47,077 nucleotides of DNA, taken from the IMG/VR virus record IMGVR_UViG_3300037225_000238, positions 1 through 47,077 of that record; one strand, given 5' to 3'. This document shows, piece after piece, positions 3,206 to 33,507 of the stretch; positions within the stretch are counted from its first letter, which is position 1, and each line of letters opens with the position of its first letter. The position numbers and the translations under genes are program-made. The notes under the pieces are model-generated. The model was not told the DNA's origin and ran no database searches. It saw only the letters and a list, made by a program, of their open reading frames with translations. This DNA is from a virus.

Positions 3206-3730
3206 ATGATTTTGGTTAACGGCATACCGAAATCCGGTACGCACGCTTTGCTCAAAGCGGTGCAACTACTTGGTATTCCTGACGATGCTGTGCGGCTGGA
3301 ACATCTACCATTTGGATTACTACCCGATGGGGTGAACAAGCACATCTACATCATCCGGCATCCTCGAAACGTGCTAGTGTCCTACTGTCGCTGGCAGAAC
3401 CGACCCGTTGCCGCCGGAATGCTCATCGGTTTTATGCGGTCCTTTGAGGGCAAGTCGTTCGCAGATTACTGGCAGACGTTCTCAGGATGGATGACTGATC
3501 CCGCTACGTTTGTCGTGAGATACGAGGCTCTTCTGGCCAATTCTGCTGTGATTGCAAAGATCGCGGCCTATCTGGGTGTACCGTGTTTGGTGGATGCTTT
3601 TGCCAATATCCCCGGCCTCACTCCGACGTGGACTGGAGCCCCGTCTGATTGGTCAACGGTCTGGAATAGGGACATTGACGCGGAGTGGCAGAAGGATTGC
3701 CAGGGTATTCAAGAAGCGATGGGATACTGA
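3206..3730 (+). CDS. Sulfotransferase family protein (PAPS-dependent)
   Basis: 174 aa. Members of this family move a sulfuryl group from PAPS to a hydroxyl or amine. Family hallmarks are visible in order: the 5'-phosphosulfate loop IPKSGTHAL at residues 7-15, the 3'-phosphate binding motif IIRHPRNVLVSY at 49-60 with Arg51 and Ser59, the RYEALL strand at 105-110, and a C-terminal TGAPSDWS at 143-150 matching the usual G-x-x-G-D-W segment. It is shorter than cellular enzymes (usually 250-300 aa) but looks complete. The ribosome binding site is GGAGG. It sits among tail fibre genes in a stretch richer in A/T than its neighbours, which suggests acquisition. The substrate may be host surface glycan or virion protein; that is inference. 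Confidence 0.8.
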   Translation: MILVNGIPKSGTHALLKAVQLLGIPDDAVRLEHLPFGLLPDGVNKHIYIIRHPRNVLVSYCRWQNRPVAAGMLIGFMRSFEGKSFADYWQTFSGWMTDPATFVVRYEALLANSAVIAKIAAYLGVPCLVDAFANIPGLTPTWTGAPSDWSTVWNRDIDAEWQKDCQGIQEAMGY

Positions 3731-15209: not shown

Positions 15210-16562
15210 CTATCGTCTCCTAGCCATAGCCATTGCCACGATCCGGTTGAGGGCTTGCTCAAAGTTGGGTTCGAGCGTGGTGAAGTTGCGGCAGAAGAGA
15301 TGCTCGTTGAACACGGGCACCACGGAGCACAGGATCACGGTCTTCCCAGCCTTTACCGCCATGCCTATCTCCATCAGAGACCCGATGGACTGCCGGGGTG
15401 GATCGTAGGGGAAGTGGGCAAGGATCACATCCGCGTCGTCGATGTCCATCTGATCTCGGTCAGCGATCTCCGGGGCGGCGAATTGTCCCTTGTAGCCCAG
15501 GCCCAAGTTGCAGATCTGATCCCGATGCTTGCCGCGGAGGGGGTCGAGGGTGCGGATGCCGTGGGCCTGGAGCATCGCCGTCGCCGCAGCCCGCCAAGTG
15601 TAGTCAACCTCCTGACCAGTGATCGGGCCGCAGAGGTAGACGGTGAAGGGGGCCTGCTTGAGATGCTCAACCGCCTTCCAGGGATCGCCCGACTCCAGAA
15701 TTTGGGTGACGGTCTGGTCGGGGCCGGAGGCGAGATCGACGCCCAGCACTACCGCCCCATCGGGGGCGGCGTCCACCCGCTGCTGGTCGGCCTCATCCCT
15801 CAAGCGGCACAACACCGAATTCTCTCGGTCGCCCAGGAGTTCTCCACCGGCTACCCGTGCTTCCAGGGACTCCAGGATGGTCCGGGCTCGTCTCGGAGAC
15901 AGACCGACTCCCGCCGCCGAGACCGGACACCCAAACAGATGCCAGTCCTTGTCGCCGCTGCCACAACCCGAACAGTGGACGACAGGGACAGTCTCGGCGA
16001 AAGTCTCATCTAACTTGGCCTGCACCTTCGCCTCCACCGTCATCGGACCCAGGAACACCTGGGGGGACCCGTCCGGCCCGATTCTACGGTCGCCGACCTG
16101 AACGCCCGGCGGGGGCTCGGCGAAGGTCTCGTCGAGCTTGGCCTGGATGCGATTCTCCACGATCCTCGGGAGTCGCCCGGTGTAGTGGGGCATATCGTCC
16201 AGGTCGGCCGGGAGGCGGTCGGCCTTGATCTCCTCCTCGTAGTGGAGGATGAACCCCGCGTTGCAGCGGATCGCGGCCATATGGTCCTCGTCCCGGAGGC
16301 CCAGCTTATACGACTCCAAATGGCGGGCGAGGGAGGCGATACATCTGCTGATCGGGATGCCTGCCTCCCAGTTTCGCTCCTTGTACTTCTCGGCCCCCAG
16401 CTTGAGCCAGGCCCCCTCCCGCAGGTTGGCATGGGGGGAGATCAGGTCCGGCCGGGGCTTGCCCGTCGCTGCGTCCCTCACTGCTCCCGTGTTGAAGTTC
16501 TGCCTCTCGCCGCTGTCCTTCACCCCCATTTCCTTCAACGCGTCCCGCATCGCTTCGCTCAT
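15210..16562 (-). CDS. dATP/dGTP diphosphohydrolase-like plus nucleoside 2-deoxyribosyltransferase-like fusion
   Basis: 450 aa with two recognisable domains. Residues about 20-125 match the phage dATP/dGTP diphosphohydrolase (DUF5664-like, all-alpha MazG-related) pattern: FNTGAVRD, GAEKYKERNW at 56-65, RHLES, EDHMAAIRCNA at 92-102. Residues about 305-445 match nucleoside 2-deoxyribosyltransferases: YLCGPITG at 309-316, DADVILAHF, and SLMEIGMA at 396-403 with the expected catalytic Glu398. The linker carries a duplicated QAKLDETFAE segment (140-149 and 181-190) and a Cys cluster at 197-212. It would act on deoxynucleotide pools. ATG 16562 has AGGAGAG upstream; the stop abuts the membrane peptide. 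Confidence 0.75.
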   Translation of the reverse strand: MSEAMRDALKEMGVKDSGERQNFNTGAVRDAATGKPRPDLISPHANLREGAWLKLGAEKYKERNWEAGIPISRCIASLARHLESYKLGLRDEDHMAAIRCNAGFILHYEEEIKADRLPADLDDMPHYTGRLPRIVENRIQAKLDETFAEPPPGVQVGDRRIGPDGSPQVFLGPMTVEAKVQAKLDETFAETVPVVHCSGCGSGDKDWHLFGCPVSAAGVGLSPRRARTILESLEARVAGGELLGDRENSVLCRLRDEADQQRVDAAPDGAVVLGVDLASGPDQTVTQILESGDPWKAVEHLKQAPFTVYLCGPITGQEVDYTWRAAATAMLQAHGIRTLDPLRGKHRDQICNLGLGYKGQFAAPEIADRDQMDIDDADVILAHFPYDPPRQSIGSLMEIGMAVKAGKTVILCSVVPVFNEHLFCRNFTTLEPNFEQALNRIVAMAMARRR

Positions 16563-20754: not shown

Positions 20755-20782
20755 ATTCTACCACGAATCCGCTGGATGTCAA
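20755..20782 (-). promoter_or_regulatory. Leftward sigma70-type promoter
   Basis: Minus strand TTGACA (20782-20777) and TAGAAT (20760-20755) with a 16-base spacer, about 40 bases before the start of the gene at 20712. The -35 overlaps the last codons of the groES-like gene. Confidence 0.7.
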
Positions 20783-21111
20783 GCCTGGACCAGCGGGAAA
20801 TCTCCGGGAACGATGCCCAGGACCTCGGATTCGTTGAGGATCAGGCACTTCGTCCCGTCGTCGATGATCGTCGGATACGGCATCACCCGCCCGTTGCGGG
20901 GGTCGGTGTGTTGGGCGATCATCACCCGGTCGCCCGGCTGGGGTCGGACCTCGATGAGCACGCCGCCGTCGTAGTGGCCCGGGCCCACGGCCCGCACGAC
21001 GCCCGTGATGAAGACCTCGCCGAAGTTGTCGGGCATGACCAGGCCCCCCGGGGTCTTCTTGGAGGGCGGGTCCTGCACTACGGTCAATAGATTACCGAGC
21101 GGTTTGAACAT
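20779..21111 (-). CDS. groES: GroES-like co-chaperonin
   Basis: 110 aa. I use ATG 21111, with AGGAG seven bases upstream; the longer frame to 21192 is the end of the previous gene. The Cpn10 pattern is clear: FKPLGNLLTVV, the mobile-loop-like KKTPGGLVMP at about 18-27 with Leu-Val-Met in place of the usual Ile-Val-Leu GroEL-binding tripeptide, GVVRAVGPG, PGDRV, and the final ILNESEVLGIV. Phage co-chaperonins such as T4 gp31 replace host GroES so that the capsid protein can fold in the GroEL cage. The likely client here is the major capsid protein (41558-42631). That use is inferred. Confidence 0.85.
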   Translation of the reverse strand: MFKPLGNLLTVVQDPPSKKTPGGLVMPDNFGEVFITGVVRAVGPGHYDGGVLIEVRPQPGDRVMIAQHTDPRNGRVMPYPTIIDDGTKCLILNESEVLGIVPGDFPLVQA

Positions 21112-21355
21112 GGATGGTCTCCTGTGGGGGTTGGAGGTTCTTGATAGCGTAGTCCAGACACGCCGCGTCAAGCTGCTCGATGACGCGGGCAACGACCCGG
21201 CCGGAGTGGTGGGCAGGGATCGGGAGAGGAATCCGCAGCACCATTGGGGTGCCGTCCCACGCAGGCTTCATAGCCAGCAGTTCGGACTTCTGCTGCCGGA
21301 GGGTGCAGCCCCCCACCAGCAATCGGATCAGTGTTTTGCCGAGGGTGGTGTCCAT
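21092..21355 (-). CDS. Small hypothetical protein
   Basis: 87 aa. ATG 21355 shares a base with the TAA of the ATPase gene before it, and its 3' end overlaps the groES start by 20 bases. It contains a helical N-terminus (LGKTLIRLLVGGCTLRQQKS) and a middle PMVLRIPLPIPAHHSGRVVA. No known motif. Codon coupling and length support a real gene of the recombination cluster. Confidence 0.55.
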   Translation of the reverse strand: MDTTLGKTLIRLLVGGCTLRQQKSELLAMKPAWDGTPMVLRIPLPIPAHHSGRVVARVIEQLDAACLDYAIKNLQPPQETIHVQTAR

Positions 21356-29273: not shown

Positions 29274-29840
29274 TCATTTCTCCTCTGGTTGCATTTCCTC
29301 GCCGCACGGGCAGGTCGGCAGCCCGACCTCGATCCACTTGGCGGTTGTTCTTACCGTATACCCACATACGCATGTGAGCTTCAACATTCGGGTCCCTTGC
29401 TTCTTGACTCCAGGGTCCTTAAGTGACAGTGCCGAGTGCGGGTAGTCCCCGACCTCCAGGCACAGAGCGTGTAAACGCTCAGTCAACTCCGGCCCGGCGT
29501 GGGTGCTCGTGGGCTTCCCATCCAGGCCCAGCTTCTTCATGCCCTGGCGGAAGTCCTTGCCATGCTTCGATTCATCGGGCAGCACGGCGTGGATAAGTTC
29601 GTGGACCAAGACCTCGGCCACGACGAAGCCCGCGTCGAGGATCGGCGTGATGAAAATCTGGCGGGACCCGTCCTTCGACGCCTTCGAGGTCCAGCACTCG
29701 CCGATCCGCTTGCGAATCTGTCGGCTGGGCCAGGAGCAGGACACGCGGACGGCGGGGACCGTGAAGCCAGCGTCCTCGAACGTGGGACGTAGGGCCTCGG
29801 TCATCGCCACTAGCCAGGCTTCCCGTGTTTCGTGTTGCAT
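29274..29840 (-). CDS. SprT-like zinc metalloprotease
   Basis: 188 aa. HELIH at 80-84 (EVLVHELIHAVLPDESKHGK) with the downstream His expected for the third metal ligand, and a C-terminal zinc ribbon with C-x-C and C-x-C pairs at about 155-180. This is the SprT/Spartan-like arrangement; cellular members cut proteins crosslinked to DNA. ATG 29840 shares a base with the preceding stop. In a phage replication unit it could clear DNA-bound proteins, which is inference. Confidence 0.8.
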   Translation of the reverse strand: MQHETREAWLVAMTEALRPTFEDAGFTVPAVRVSCSWPSRQIRKRIGECWTSKASKDGSRQIFITPILDAGFVVAEVLVHELIHAVLPDESKHGKDFRQGMKKLGLDGKPTSTHAGPELTERLHALCLEVGDYPHSALSLKDPGVKKQGTRMLKLTCVCGYTVRTTAKWIEVGLPTCPCGEEMQPEEK

Positions 29841-30043
29841 CAGACACTCCCATTCAACTTGTTCGCCCGTGCCTGTGCCGCTTCCAACCCGCCGTAGACT
29901 CGAACGTGTCCATCCGTCCCGCGATGGTACACCGCCTTCGGGCCGGGGCTCCGCACCACCCGCCAATTGGTGATGTGGCGGATGGGCACCCAATCACCGA
30001 CTACGGTGGGGATCGGCGGGGGGATTGTGGGAGGTGGTTGCAT
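29840..30043 (-). CDS. Small protein with Pro-rich N-terminal tag
   Basis: 67 aa. AAGGAG precedes ATG 30043. It starts MQPPPTIPPPIPTVVGDW, nearly the same as the first residues of the VRR-NUC protein, then a compact domain (WRVVRSPGPKAVYHRG, then GLEAAQARANKLNG). No known family. Confidence 0.6.
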   Translation of the reverse strand: MQPPPTIPPPIPTVVGDWVPIRHITNWRVVRSPGPKAVYHRGTDGHVRVYGGLEAAQARANKLNGSV

Positions 30044-30142: not shown

Positions 30143-30159
30143 ATGCTATTCGTATTTTT

Positions 30160-30325
30160 CTAGAAGCCGATGCCAGTGTGGTGCCCGTAGTAGTGCATCT
30201 TCCCGCCGCATCGCGGGCAGGTCTTGGTCCTGCGGGATCGGCCGGAGCCGCAATCCCCGCACCACCAGGAGTAGTCCTTTTTTGTGGAGAATATGCGGAG
30301 GGCCTGTTACAGGGATTTGTTTCAT
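30160..30325 (-). pseudogene. Zinc-ribbon protein gene, frameshifted at an A6 run
   Basis: ATG 30325 with a strong GGAGGGG site opens a frame (MKQIPVTGPPHILHKK) that loses sense at six A residues. The next frame then reads DYSWWCGDCGSGRSRRTKT followed by CPRCGGKMHYYG and a TAG at 30160, a clear two-CxxC zinc ribbon with no start codon of its own. One base fewer in the A run would give a single 54-aa protein. The cause may be a real mutation, slippage, or a homopolymer error. Confidence 0.6.
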
Positions 30326-30420
30326 CGTTCCCCTCCGATCATCGCCCGCATCAGGGCGAAGTAGGCAAATCCGATCAGACCGAGCAACACCGCTGCACTT
30401 CCGACGATTTCATACAGCAT
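30322..30420 (-). CDS. 32-aa membrane peptide
   Basis: ATG 30420 has GGAG nine bases upstream, and the TGA overlaps the next start as ATGA. It encodes MLYEIVGSAAVLLGLIGFAY and then a basic/Gly end (IGGER), a single hydrophobic helix of about 20 residues. It lies directly after the amidotransferase gene and may belong to that cassette. Confidence 0.55.
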   Translation of the reverse strand: MLYEIVGSAAVLLGLIGFAYFALMRAMIGGER

Positions 30421-30423
30421 AAA

Positions 30424-31230
30424 TCAGATCTCCTCTTCCGGTGGAACCACGCTTCCGCAATCCGGGCAGTAGCGTCCTCGACCTATCGTGATTAACTCAC
30501 ATCGGGCGAAGATCAGACCGCAGAGGGAACACTCCTCTTCGTCCTCGTCCTCGTCCTCGTCCATATTGGTATCGCCGTCCGCGTATCGACATTGCCAATC
30601 TCGCTCAACTAGCATATCGGGATCGTCGCTGTTTACAGAGGAAAACAGGCTCCTTCCCTTCCCAGTATATTGTGGCGTAATCCGCAAGGGGCGATAGCCC
30701 CGGTTGGAATACCATACACCCTCGTCCCATATCCCATCCCCTTCGTTCGATATGGTTGCGTGGCCGTCCGAATTGAGGAATACGAATTTAGAGGCATTCA
30801 CTTCGGCGTAGGCGTCTAGTAATGGAAGATACGCGTCTGGAATGTTCCCATCGGGTAGGATAGTCGCTAGGCTATCGACGAAAATAGCCGTGTCGGACCT
30901 AGGGGAATTCTCCGGGAGTTCCATAAGAAGAATCCCGTTATGTACCATTGCAAGGTGCGGATTGATATTGAACGGGTGGCACATCATCGGGTTGATACTG
31001 CCCGATGTGGCGATACGGAAGTGAAGGACGAAATTCGCTTCCGGGTGCTCCCGCAATGCGGCACAATAGGCTACATGGAACATCTTGAACTTCATGTAGC
31101 CTTTACACACTGTCAGGGAACCACTAGCGGCGTACATGAAACCCGCACCGTTCGGGTTGCTCTCCCAGCATTGGCGTAAGGTGGCGTCATCGATATGCTT
31201 ACCGGCCGGTTTGTAGATTGCGATACACAT
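30424..31230 (-). CDS. Class II glutamine amidotransferase-like protein
   Basis: 268 aa. It begins MCIAIYKPAG, placing the catalytic Cys at residue 2 as in Ntn-type glutamine amidotransferases. Further family signs are NPNGAGFMY, the FRIATSG strand, the CHPF segment, and MVHNGIL. The C-terminal 60 residues carry an acidic run encoded by GTCCTC repeats and a zinc-ribbon-like C-x2-C...C...C-x2-C. It would release ammonia from glutamine for a partner synthetase. That partner is very likely the amidoligase just upstream, whose stop overlaps this start. The codon and base composition is A/T-richer than that of most of the genome. Confidence 0.75.
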   Translation of the reverse strand: MCIAIYKPAGKHIDDATLRQCWESNPNGAGFMYAASGSLTVCKGYMKFKMFHVAYCAALREHPEANFVLHFRIATSGSINPMMCHPFNINPHLAMVHNGILLMELPENSPRSDTAIFVDSLATILPDGNIPDAYLPLLDAYAEVNASKFVFLNSDGHATISNEGDGIWDEGVWYSNRGYRPLRITPQYTGKGRSLFSSVNSDDPDMLVERDWQCRYADGDTNMDEDEDEDEEECSLCGLIFARCELITIGRGRYCPDCGSVVPPEEEI

Positions 31231-32435
31231 TAGATAATCATCTCCTTTGCAACCAGGAAGGCATAAAGATGCGGATACTCCTTGCGATTCTTGACCACAA
31301 AAGCCAAGAAATTCGCTTTATTCACTTTGGGGATAGCAGTATCCCGCGTAAAGGTAAAGGCGGCATGTACGAATTCTAGGTTTTTCCAGAACCCGTCGGG
31401 TGCAAGGGTGCCTCGAAATACGCGAATTTCCACCGTGTGGCGATTCTGGAGATTAACGGCCGAATATCGATTTCCTATATTCCGCTTGTTCTTGGCTTTG
31501 TAGATGATCCCACGATTGGTATCGTCGAACGCCGCCCATCGAGTTAACGCGGCCAGTGAAGATCGGCCGGAAATGGTCAAGATCATGTCCTGTTCCTCCA
31601 AGAACAAGCGGAGGAACTTGTAGAGATGTGCAGACCCCACAAATGCGTTGGCGGATAGGTGGACGTGCATTCCACAAGTAGTTGTCTCGAAAGATCGAAA
31701 CCCGCCTTTTAGGACGCGGCCTAGTAACGTATTCCAGTGTCCGTTATTCTCCTGTAACCATTGCCAAGATAGCGGGTGACTAACAATCTCGAATCCATTG
31801 TCCAGAGAACCATCGTTTTTGGCGTAGACGAAACCGGGGAGCCCCTCGGCCATATGGGCACAGGTGCGCAGGTTCCGGGTGTTCTCTACCTCTAGTTCGA
31901 TCCCGAGAAACAATCGGTTGGATTGACTTGGTTCCCATCGTCCGTTATGGAAACAGGGCGTGGGTTTGTAGTCATGATTGTGGATAACGCTAGATTCGTT
32001 TTCGGCTGGATAGCACGATTCGCAGAGGTGTCGCTCTGATTCTTCATGGTAGTGGAGATAGTCGATGTGGTATTCCCCACCGCATGAATCGCAATACCCG
32101 TAGTGTTCGGAATAGCAAGTTTGGCAGAGATTCGAGTTGTCAATGTGAACAATATCCTTGACGAAGACTACCTCACTGCAATGATCACATTCTGTATAGG
32201 CGGCGTCATAGCATGACTTGCATAACGGATCGCCGTTCGGGGATTGCCTCGCATCGTCCCGTTGACATACGCAGTCGCAAGAATCGCAATGAACGTGATC
32301 CTCATTGAAGCAATCGAGACAGAGGGTCTCCTCGTCTACCTCCTCCGCTTCCTCCTCAGGGAACAATTCACCGCATCGGGAACAGGCAATGTGGGGCGGG
32401 GGGATGAGCTCTGCAGGGAATAGTGACGGCGGCAT
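31230..32435 (-). CDS. Amidoligase with N-terminal zinc fingers
   Basis: 401 aa. Residues about 18-143 contain at least four LIM/zinc-ribbon-like C-x2-C units (CSRCGE, CDSCDC, CDHCSE, CDSCGG). Residues about 175-395 match the glutamine-synthetase-fold amidoligase family (Amidoligase_2): LGIELEVE, NDGSLDNGFEIVSHPL, TTCGMHVHLS, and EIRVFRGTL. Family members are proposed to join an amine to a carboxyl group in peptide tags or small metabolites using ATP. The link to a class II amidotransferase is a known genomic theme for this family in phages. GGAG precedes ATG 32435. Substrate unknown. Confidence 0.8.
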   Translation of the reverse strand: MPPSLFPAELIPPPHIACSRCGELFPEEEAEEVDEETLCLDCFNEDHVHCDSCDCVCQRDDARQSPNGDPLCKSCYDAAYTECDHCSEVVFVKDIVHIDNSNLCQTCYSEHYGYCDSCGGEYHIDYLHYHEESERHLCESCYPAENESSVIHNHDYKPTPCFHNGRWEPSQSNRLFLGIELEVENTRNLRTCAHMAEGLPGFVYAKNDGSLDNGFEIVSHPLSWQWLQENNGHWNTLLGRVLKGGFRSFETTTCGMHVHLSANAFVGSAHLYKFLRLFLEEQDMILTISGRSSLAALTRWAAFDDTNRGIIYKAKNKRNIGNRYSAVNLQNRHTVEIRVFRGTLAPDGFWKNLEFVHAAFTFTRDTAIPKVNKANFLAFVVKNRKEYPHLYAFLVAKEMII

Positions 32436-32507: not shown

Positions 32508-32723
32508 CTACGATTCGCTTGGGGTCTGGGGCAACTGGCGATTCACGAATTGTCCGTCGCCGAATTCGTCGATGATCCGCTGGGCCTGTTCCAACGTCAA
32601 TCGTTCGAATTTGTCCAATCGCCGGTTTACACGTCGCCGTGCCGCGTCATATCGTCGCCAGCATTGTGGGCAATAGGTCTGATTTCCTTCATGGGGTTGT
32701 TGGCATTTGGGACACGTTTTCAT
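32508..32723 (-). CDS. Small zinc-ribbon protein
   Basis: 71 aa. CPKCQQPHEGNQTYCPQCW at residues 4-22 is a two-CxxC zinc ribbon, followed by a basic helix (RRYDAARRRVNRRLDKF) and an acidic one. It is the first gene after a near-consensus promoter and an operator-like palindrome (32743-32781). It could bind nucleic acid and act as an early regulator. Confidence 0.65.
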   Translation of the reverse strand: MKTCPKCQQPHEGNQTYCPQCWRRYDAARRRVNRRLDKFERLTLEQAQRIIDEFGDGQFVNRQLPQTPSES

Positions 32724-32742
32724 GGGCGTTGACTCCTATTAG

Positions 32743-32761
32743 GGTTAGATGCAGTCTAACC
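32743..32761. promoter_or_regulatory. Operator-like palindrome 1
   Basis: GGTTAGATGCAGTCTAACC has seven-base arms around TGCAG and covers the -10 of the leftward promoter 32753-32781. The same motif recurs at 33050-33066 and as a half-site at 33073-33084, as expected of a repressor or activator site. Confidence 0.65.
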
Positions 32762-32781
32762 GAACTGTTAGGCGTTGTCAA
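32753..32781 (-). promoter_or_regulatory. Leftward sigma70-type promoter
   Basis: Minus strand TTGACA (32781-32776) and TAGACT (32758-32753) with 17 bases between, identical in boxes and spacing to the promoter at 14035-14007. It would transcribe the zinc-ribbon, amidoligase and amidotransferase genes, and its -10 is inside a palindrome. Confidence 0.75.
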
Positions 32782-32855
32782 GCGATCATTTCCGATTTCC
32801 CTAACCTCATTGAATTCAAGACTATAGCAATTCCCCTAGACGGGACAGTTAGAGA

Positions 32856-32983
32856 AGACGGCTTGACAGAATAGTATCATCTAAGGGAATACCACTATAT
32901 ACCATATGGGTAAGATATAACGTGTATACGTGTAGATACACCTCATATAGCGTATATAGGCTACAATGGGGTGCAAGCCGTCT
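32856..32983. other. AT-rich core inside a 10-bp inverted repeat, origin candidate
   Basis: AGACGGCTTG (32856-32865) and CAAGCCGTCT (32974-32983) are perfect inverted arms around about 108 bp that is far richer in A/T than the rest (runs such as CTATATACCATATG, CATATAGCGTATATAG). It contains a smaller inverted repeat GTGTAT...ATACAC at 32922-32941. There is no gene in 32724-33073. This may be a replication origin or a multi-operator control site; I cannot distinguish these. Confidence 0.5.
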
Positions 32984-33007
32984 AGAGGGCATCTAACCCC
33001 ATAATTG

Positions 33008-33045
33008 AAACGCTAACTCCCTGCGATTGCAAGGGGTTAGCGTTT
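33008..33045. terminator. Hairpin, probable bidirectional terminator
   Basis: AAACGCTAACTCC (33008-33020) pairs with GGGGTTAGCGTTT (33033-33045) around a short loop. T residues follow on the plus strand (33043-33046) and on the minus strand. It separates the small zinc-protein genes at 33074-33471 from the AT-rich region. Confidence 0.55.
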
Positions 33046-33049
33046 TAGG

Positions 33050-33084
33050 GTTAGACGTAGTCTAACGGGTAGGTTAGACGTAGT
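33050..33084. promoter_or_regulatory. Operator-like palindrome 2 and half-site
   Basis: GTTAGACGTAGTCTAAC at 33050-33066 has seven-base arms around GTA. GTTAGACGTAGT at 33073-33084 is a further left half. The pair matches palindrome 1 at 32743-32761 apart from central bases. Confidence 0.6.
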
Positions 33085-33223
33085 GTTGCTTTTTGGCAAC
33101 ATGGAACAATGATCGTGTTGCTTTTTGGCAACATGCAAACGTTGTTCGCTTGCATTTGTCACAGTAGCATTCCACTACCGTGTCCATCGTTCCATCGTCG
33201 GACAAAGAAAACGTGATTGCCAT
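33074..33223 (-). CDS. Truncated copy of the small zinc-binding protein
   Basis: 49 aa. ATG 33223 with GGAGG upstream. The first 27 residues (MAITFSLSDDGTMDTVV, then CYCDKCKRT) nearly repeat the protein at 33268-33471. After that the frame enters the palindromic repeat DNA and ends KKQHYV. It looks like a partial gene duplication whose 3' half was replaced. It may still make a short CxCxxC peptide. Confidence 0.55.
   Translation of the reverse strand: MAITFSLSDDGTMDTVVECYCDKCKRTTFACCQKATRSLFHVAKKQHYV
33083..33135. repeat. Two copies of a 21-bp palindromic element
   Basis: TGTTGCTTTTTGGCAACA, with flanking G and TG, occurs at 33083-33103 and 33115-33135, exactly 32 bp apart (about three helical turns). 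Each is itself an inverted repeat (TGTTGC/GCAACA). They lie within the truncated gene copy and beside the operator-like half-site, so they may be regulator sites or small insertions. Confidence 0.75.
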
Positions 33224-33267
33224 GTTCGATCCTCCAATAGGTTGTGGGTACAAGGGGATCATACGAT

Positions 33268-33471
33268 CTACTCTTCGCAATCGCAGTACACATCCTCCGC
33301 GATTTCCGCGAAGAATGCGTCTTCGTCCAATTCCCCGGTTTCCGGATTGCGATACTCGGCGACGTATTCCCCACCGAATCTCTCCCCCCATGTACGTTTG
33401 CACTTGTCACAGTAGCATTTCACTACCGTATCCATCGTTCCGTCATCGACCAACGAGAAGGTGATTGCCAT
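33268..33471 (-). CDS. Small zinc-binding protein
   Basis: 67 aa. AGGAG precedes ATG 33471. Pattern: MAITFSLVDDGTMDTVV, CYCDKCKRTWGERFGG, an acidic stretch, and a final YCDCEE, giving a C-x-C-x2-C ... C-x-C set. It is the intact parent of the copy at 33074-33223. Likely an early phage protein; function unknown. Confidence 0.65.
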   Translation of the reverse strand: MAITFSLVDDGTMDTVVKCYCDKCKRTWGERFGGEYVAEYRNPETGELDEDAFFAEIAEDVYCDCEE

Positions 33472-33507
33472 GTTTGATACTCCTTGCCACTATCGGCTAC
33501 TGGTAGA

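Follow-up and report, generated by a model that had tools for sequence, protein, structure and literature searches.

Two overlapping genes in the genome of a virus encode a conserved and probably active enzyme pair, as judged from sequence comparison and structure prediction: an amidoligase of the glutamine-synthetase fold and a class II glutamine amidotransferase (GAT-II), a glutaminase of the Ntn type. The genes lie in a 47-kb virus record (IMG/VR record IMGVR_UViG_3300037225_000238, positions 1 to 47,077; referred to here as the window), which also encodes a terminase, an SU10-like portal, a primase and a family A polymerase, and whose DNA is not closely matched by any entry of the phage collection searched. 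The best reading of the pair, taken as a whole explanation, is a two-subunit, glutamine-dependent amidating enzyme, and the balance of the evidence tips modestly in its favor. The predicted folds, the active-site residues, the obligate pairing of the two genes and their spread on mobile elements are shown by the analysis, whereas the transfer of ammonia between the subunits, the class of substrate and the biological purpose are inferred. With its active sites intact, the pair occurs in hundreds of phage contigs and on many mobile elements from bacteria of gut, soil and marine habitats, and the problem now comes down to a single enzyme made of two defined proteins, probably equipped with an arm for docking.

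Organization of the cassette

The cassette is encoded on the minus strand. Reading from the promoter, the operon consists of a gene for a 71-aa protein with weak matches to zinc-ribbon profiles (32723..32508), the amidoligase gene (401 aa, 32435..31230), the GAT-II gene (268 aa, 31230..30424), a gene for a 32-aa, single-span membrane peptide with a peak hydropathy of 2.1 and a good ribosome-binding site (30420..30322), and a frame-broken zinc-ribbon gene (30146..30325) whose start overlaps the stop of the peptide gene. A purine-rich ribosome-binding site precedes each of the four operon starts checked. One base belongs both to the stop codon of the amidoligase gene and to the start codon of the GAT gene, so the coordinates bear out the coupling by a one-base overlap that a preliminary description of this DNA had reported.

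That description also placed a membrane peptide and a frameshifted zinc-ribbon gene downstream of the enzymes. Both are present, but neither is conserved with the pair. As candidate parts of the system they were rejected, since a similar small open reading frame lies directly downstream in 8 of 80 relatives in the case of the peptide and in 2 of 80 in the case of the zinc ribbon. The CxxC...CxxC frame of the latter is open past the peptide gene but is not the frame of the coupled ATG at 30325. An A-run marks the break, which may reflect slippage, a gene that has died or an error in the sequence. The 71-aa zinc-ribbon gene has no counterpart among the recurrent neighbors of the pair. A gene for an SprT-like metalloprotease with a C-terminal zinc ribbon lies further downstream of the cassette (29274-29852, minus strand).

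The cassette had further been described as richer in A/T than its surroundings. Its GC content is indeed 51.6%, against 61.1% for the window, but the A/T-rich stretch extends from about 30.0 to 34.1 kb and is wider than the cassette, so this property is not specific to it.

The promoter region

A near-consensus σ70-type promoter, TTGACA-17-TAGACT, is predicted at 32781..32753 on the minus strand, with a palindrome, CTAAC-N6-GTTAG, inside its spacer. Sites of this grade number 3 in the window, against 0.04 expected. Both the promoter and the operator-like palindrome had been pointed out previously; what required correction was the start of the cassette, since the promoter precedes the 71-aa gene and the operon begins there rather than at the amidoligase.

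The regulatory region proper spans 32730..33100. Its 371 bases hold 11 of the window's 25 CTAAC/GTTAG boxes, a degree of clustering matched in none of 2000 shuffles of the region, together with a stem-loop at 33008-33045 and a 40-nt element (32739-32778) that recurs with 78% likeness at 33045-33084. The clustering of the boxes and the repeat make an operator cluster upstream of the operon likely, and the boxes are perhaps the operators of some phage regulator. Just beyond this region, at 33143-33483, the start of a gene for a 67-aa zinc-ribbon-like protein is tandemly duplicated (85% over 93 nt), and the second copy is truncated.

The amidoligase subunit

The assignment of the 401-aa protein to the glutamine-synthetase-fold amidoligases, first made from the sequence by itself, is supported by profile matches, a predicted fold and invariant active-site residues. 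The protein matches the Amidoligase_2 profile (PF12224) at 29.5 bits, above the cut-off of 22, and all 38 relatives examined match the profile at E <= 0.01. An AlphaFold2 model, built from an alignment of 33 window and phage rows, has a mean pLDDT of 90, and the best solved matches found for it by Foldseek are glutamine synthetase, YbdK and GmaS (gamma-glutamylmethylamide synthetase), with Dop and PafA lower down. The subunits were modelled singly, and both predicted folds match the expected enzymes rather than lacking the amidoligase ATP site or the Cys2 pocket; TM-scores against solved structures are modest, at 0.3-0.5.

Conservation points to the same active site. The catalytic core comprises residues ~170-382, and within it E180, E182, D208, S210, E216, H257, H259, R291, E336 and R338 (E180 to R338 being encoded at 31422..31898, minus strand) are invariant in 33 phage rows, which represent 33 diverged amidoligase/GAT pairs. 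The same ten residues are invariant in 38 rows when known phages are included. A G-x-H-x-H-x-S motif appears to resemble the ATP-site signature of glutamine synthetase.

The glutaminase subunit

The 268-aa protein is supported as a class II glutamine amidotransferase by its profile and fold matches and its conserved residues. It matches phrog_25883 (8e-18), a profile of its family finds the GlmS glutaminase domain (5e-12), and its predicted fold matches GlmS (E 1.8e-06) and EgtC (E 8e-05). The window protein itself has no match among the GATase Pfam profiles; among 39 relatives, GATase_4 is matched in 31 and GATase_6 in 20. Seven residues, C2, R72, H85, H97, N98, G99 and D113, are invariant in the 33 rows and make up the class II set of Cys2, a glutamine-binding Arg, His, the Asn-Gly oxyanion hole and Asp. 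An acidic linker of low model confidence (~190-226) connects this domain to a C-terminal zinc ribbon, C234/C237/C255/C258. The amidotransferase with a zinc ribbon of its own that had been proposed is supported in both respects. The four zinc-ribbon cysteines recur in at least 90% of the 33 relatives, which makes the tail a trait of this branch of the family and not a peculiarity of one phage.

The EgtC matches run counter to the amidating reading, since EgtC, an amide hydrolase rather than a supplier of ammonia, is among the best fold matches and its structures occupy much of the list. They raise the prospect of a make-and-break arrangement as in ergothioneine synthesis, with the amidoligase adding a gamma-glutamyl or other amino-acid group that an EgtC-like Ntn hydrolase then removes or recycles. 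One of the best matches for the amidoligase is YbdK, a carboxylate-amine ligase of the glutamate-cysteine ligase type, and a pocket for free glutamine would be compatible with either role. Such EgtA/EgtC logic is the closest alternative, and the predicted folds fit it and amidation alike. It is nonetheless considered unlikely: by profile and by fold the GAT comes closest to the GlmS glutaminase domain, and opposing activities in one obligate, overlapping pair would need an intermediate step, for which the module offers no further conserved gene.

The zinc arms

At least four zinc fingers had been proposed at the N-terminus of the amidoligase, and four CxxC...CxxC modules are found there (residues 18-141; 32013..32384, minus strand), giving eight CxxC motifs ahead of the core to set beside the two of the GAT tail (234 and 255). 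When the amidoligase family profile is searched, LIM proteins come first (E 0.003), and the N-terminal part of the model matches the LIM domains of LMO2 and PINCH. The LIM domain profile scores 13.9 bits against the window protein, under its cut-off of 22.9, and is matched by 4 of 38 relatives (E <= 0.01). From these profile and model comparisons the arm is classed as LIM-like, and not as a LIM domain.

LIM-type folds usually bind proteins. By analogy, a protein partner is more likely for these arms than a nucleic acid, the arms probably dock a protein, and the guidance of a modification by the zinc fingers, as originally suggested, is plausible.

A protein-binding arm, as LIM-like modules normally are, also suits a protein ligase that works on the principle of the Pup ligase PafA. 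Such an amidoligase would link proteins to one another, or an amino acid to a protein, by isopeptide or peptide bonds, and the GAT would regulate or reverse the reaction. Both PafA and Dop appear in the list of fold matches of the amidoligase, and the invariant D208 would suit a catalytic base, a position that we take from what is known of glutamine synthetase and PafA. Ligation, on the other hand, needs no ammonia-releasing partner, and no conserved small, tag-like protein travels with the pair, which leaves a protein ligase rather improbable.

Most amidoligase relatives have at least four CxxC motifs ahead of the core. A phage clade comprising the loci L017, L026, L034 and their kin, which branches beside the zinc-rich L016, has an N-terminal region of similar length that is nearly devoid of zinc motifs; some other rows that seem free of zinc are simply cut-off contigs. 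Because the ligands are absent from this clade, zinc appears to be dispensable for the core reaction, and the catalytic pair can be regarded as the constant part of the system and the arm as a variable part for recognition or scaffolding. Zinc motifs occur in both subunits in 29 of 41 dereplicated loci (several of them on cut-off contigs), in one subunit only in 6 and 4, and in neither in 2, with no clear association of zinc loss between the subunits.

Pairing and distribution

Pattern searches of viral contigs that started from either protein of the window alone gave no match, and alignments were required. A search with the amidoligase then confirmed at least 573 viral contigs, and among the best 80, picked by the amidoligase alone, the GAT was found in 78; the remaining two end 59 and 33 bases past the amidoligase. 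The reverse search gave a similar picture, with an amidoligase upstream in 79 of 80 viral contigs picked by the GAT alone and only 35 bases of upstream sequence in the exception, the two samples overlapping in part. Both genes are likewise present in 78 of 80 genome contigs, and the other two contigs stop no more than 130 bases from the amidoligase. The GAT directly follows the amidoligase in 85 of 90 loci. The samples consist of best-scoring relatives, so these figures apply to the close family and not to PF12224 as a whole; a relative in a Clostridioides phage (L006) has neither a zinc arm nor a GAT nearby. Far from being consistently absent together, the two genes are almost always found together in relatives. 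The distance matrices of the two proteins are correlated (r = 0.82, against a maximum of 0.28 in 5000 permutations), which indicates joint travel and not contact, since linkage alone can yield such a correlation.

The genome contigs with the pair come mostly from Oscillospiraceae, with some from Micromonosporaceae, Ignavibacteria and others. Recurrent neighbors in these contigs include resolvase, relaxase and integrase genes along with DUF960, DUF1643 and DUF4314, and a TraG-like protein is encoded near the pair in one actinobacterial contig. Given such neighbors, many of the genome loci are probably integrative or conjugative elements, and the pair can be considered an obligate two-gene module of mobile elements. 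No third conserved gene that might encode a substrate or a tag was found beside the pair in the 90 loci or among the genome-contig neighbors.

The protein most similar to the amidoligase, at 50% identity, is encoded in a contig binned with Lokiarchaeota (L092:5419-7521). An archaeal gene was considered, but its neighbors, replication genes and terminase-like proteins as judged by eye, look phage-like, and the contig probably belongs to an archaeal virus or to a phage that was misbinned. Zinc-armed amidoligase genes occur in tandem ahead of the GAT at L013:2370-4705 and L015:2173-4708, and likewise in L107, L115 and L137.

Related cassettes in known phages

The novelty first claimed for a phage system of this kind was overstated: phages of the Marvin and OM43 types carry the pair, and the amidoligase class and its phage cassettes were reportedly described by Iyer et al. 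in 2009. In Marvin-type (cluster S) mycobacteriophages, for example gp105/gp106 of Marvin, a CxxC-armed amidoligase and a GAT-II are encoded in the same order as in the window, at 28-34% identity. Unlike the window pair, their genes are separated by 78-79 bases and the amidoligase has a C-terminal extension; the annotation reads merely 'glutamine amidotransferase domain' or hypothetical. Zinc-armed amidoligase genes followed by GAT-II genes are also seen in Oscillospiraceae and actinobacterial genome contigs, where the Oscillospiraceae GAT differs from that of the window in being longer and having no zinc tail. No paper describing LIM-like arms or the obligate pairing was found in a literature search of partial coverage.

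The pair has been reported in the OM43 phages MEP401 and MEP402 (PMC10580990), in the same overlapping order and with a GAT 38-40% identical to that of the window. These phages differ in having an N-terminal region of ~320 aa with few zinc motifs and a GAT tail without CxxC pairs. As cited in the same paper, cell-wall modification against superinfection has been proposed for phiEco32 and the production of secondary metabolites for Marvin.

Larger cassettes are found in phages UFV-P2, tf and StenR_269, which have a PF12224 amidoligase and a GAT-II within one early operon, as here, but add ATP-grasp enzymes and, in part, a COOH-NH2 ligase (PF14395) or a gamma-glutamyl cyclotransferase. The amidoligase of StenR_269 has no zinc arms, in contrast to that of the window, and none of the ATP-grasp, PF14395 or cyclotransferase genes is present among the window neighbors tested. 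The window cassette is the small, zinc-armed form, in which the pair stands alone, unlike the UFV-P2/StenR_269 type.

A metabolic role has been proposed for a phage with genes for an amidoligase, a GAT, a glutathione synthase and a gamma-glutamylcyclotransferase (PMC10945688), and by extension the window pair might be auxiliary metabolic genes that make a small nitrogen compound or boost host nitrogen assimilation. Two of the enzyme genes of that phage are absent beside the window pair. A macromolecular target agrees better with the zinc-rich docking arms and with the occurrence of the pair in conjugative elements as well as in phages of gut, marine and soil origin, and a metabolic role is accordingly given very little weight.

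Proposed mechanism and role

A literature search of partial coverage found no biochemistry for any family member. In the proposed amidating enzyme, Cys2 of the GAT-II subunit would hydrolyze glutamine to release ammonia. The amidoligase subunit, supplied with ATP and metal ions, would activate a carboxylate, probably by forming an acyl phosphate in the manner of glutamine synthetase. Ammonia passing from one subunit to the other would then react with the activated carboxylate to form an amide. The zinc modules, situated at the outer ends of both subunits, may serve to bind the substrate or to keep the complex assembled.

The pair appears to be transcribed from a promoter of its own and is carried by phages and conjugative elements, so its product likely aids the element. 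It would most likely serve the element against the host or rivals, for instance through the modification of a host protein or of the cell envelope. Such a role would accord with the distribution of the pair, which is carried by phages and conjugative elements across several phyla. One specific version is a widespread, self-contained protein-amidation system in which the LIM-like arms select a host protein. Its acidic side chains or its C-terminus would then be amidated at the expense of glutamine, and the change in the protein's function would favor the element. This version is entertained only tentatively, as is the outcome it allows for, that amidation might, for example, defeat a defense or reprogram transcription. 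If a host protein is the target, the pair would represent a new means for mobile elements to reprogram bacterial cells.

Two other roles were considered and set aside. The pair has no match among the PADLOC-DB profiles of known anti-phage defense proteins, and no gene for DNA-base modification was found in the subset of window proteins that was scanned.

Other genes of the window

Several genes away from the cassette may be mentioned. A 450-aa protein (15210-16562, minus strand) combines a dATP/dGTP diphosphohydrolase domain with a nucleoside 2-deoxyribosyltransferase domain, and a GroES-like co-chaperonin is encoded at 20779-21192 (minus strand). Amid structural-looking genes, a sulfotransferase (Sulfotransfer_1, 35 bits) is encoded at 3206-3730 on the plus strand; a sulfotransferase is also present in some OM43-type phage genomes (PMC10580990).
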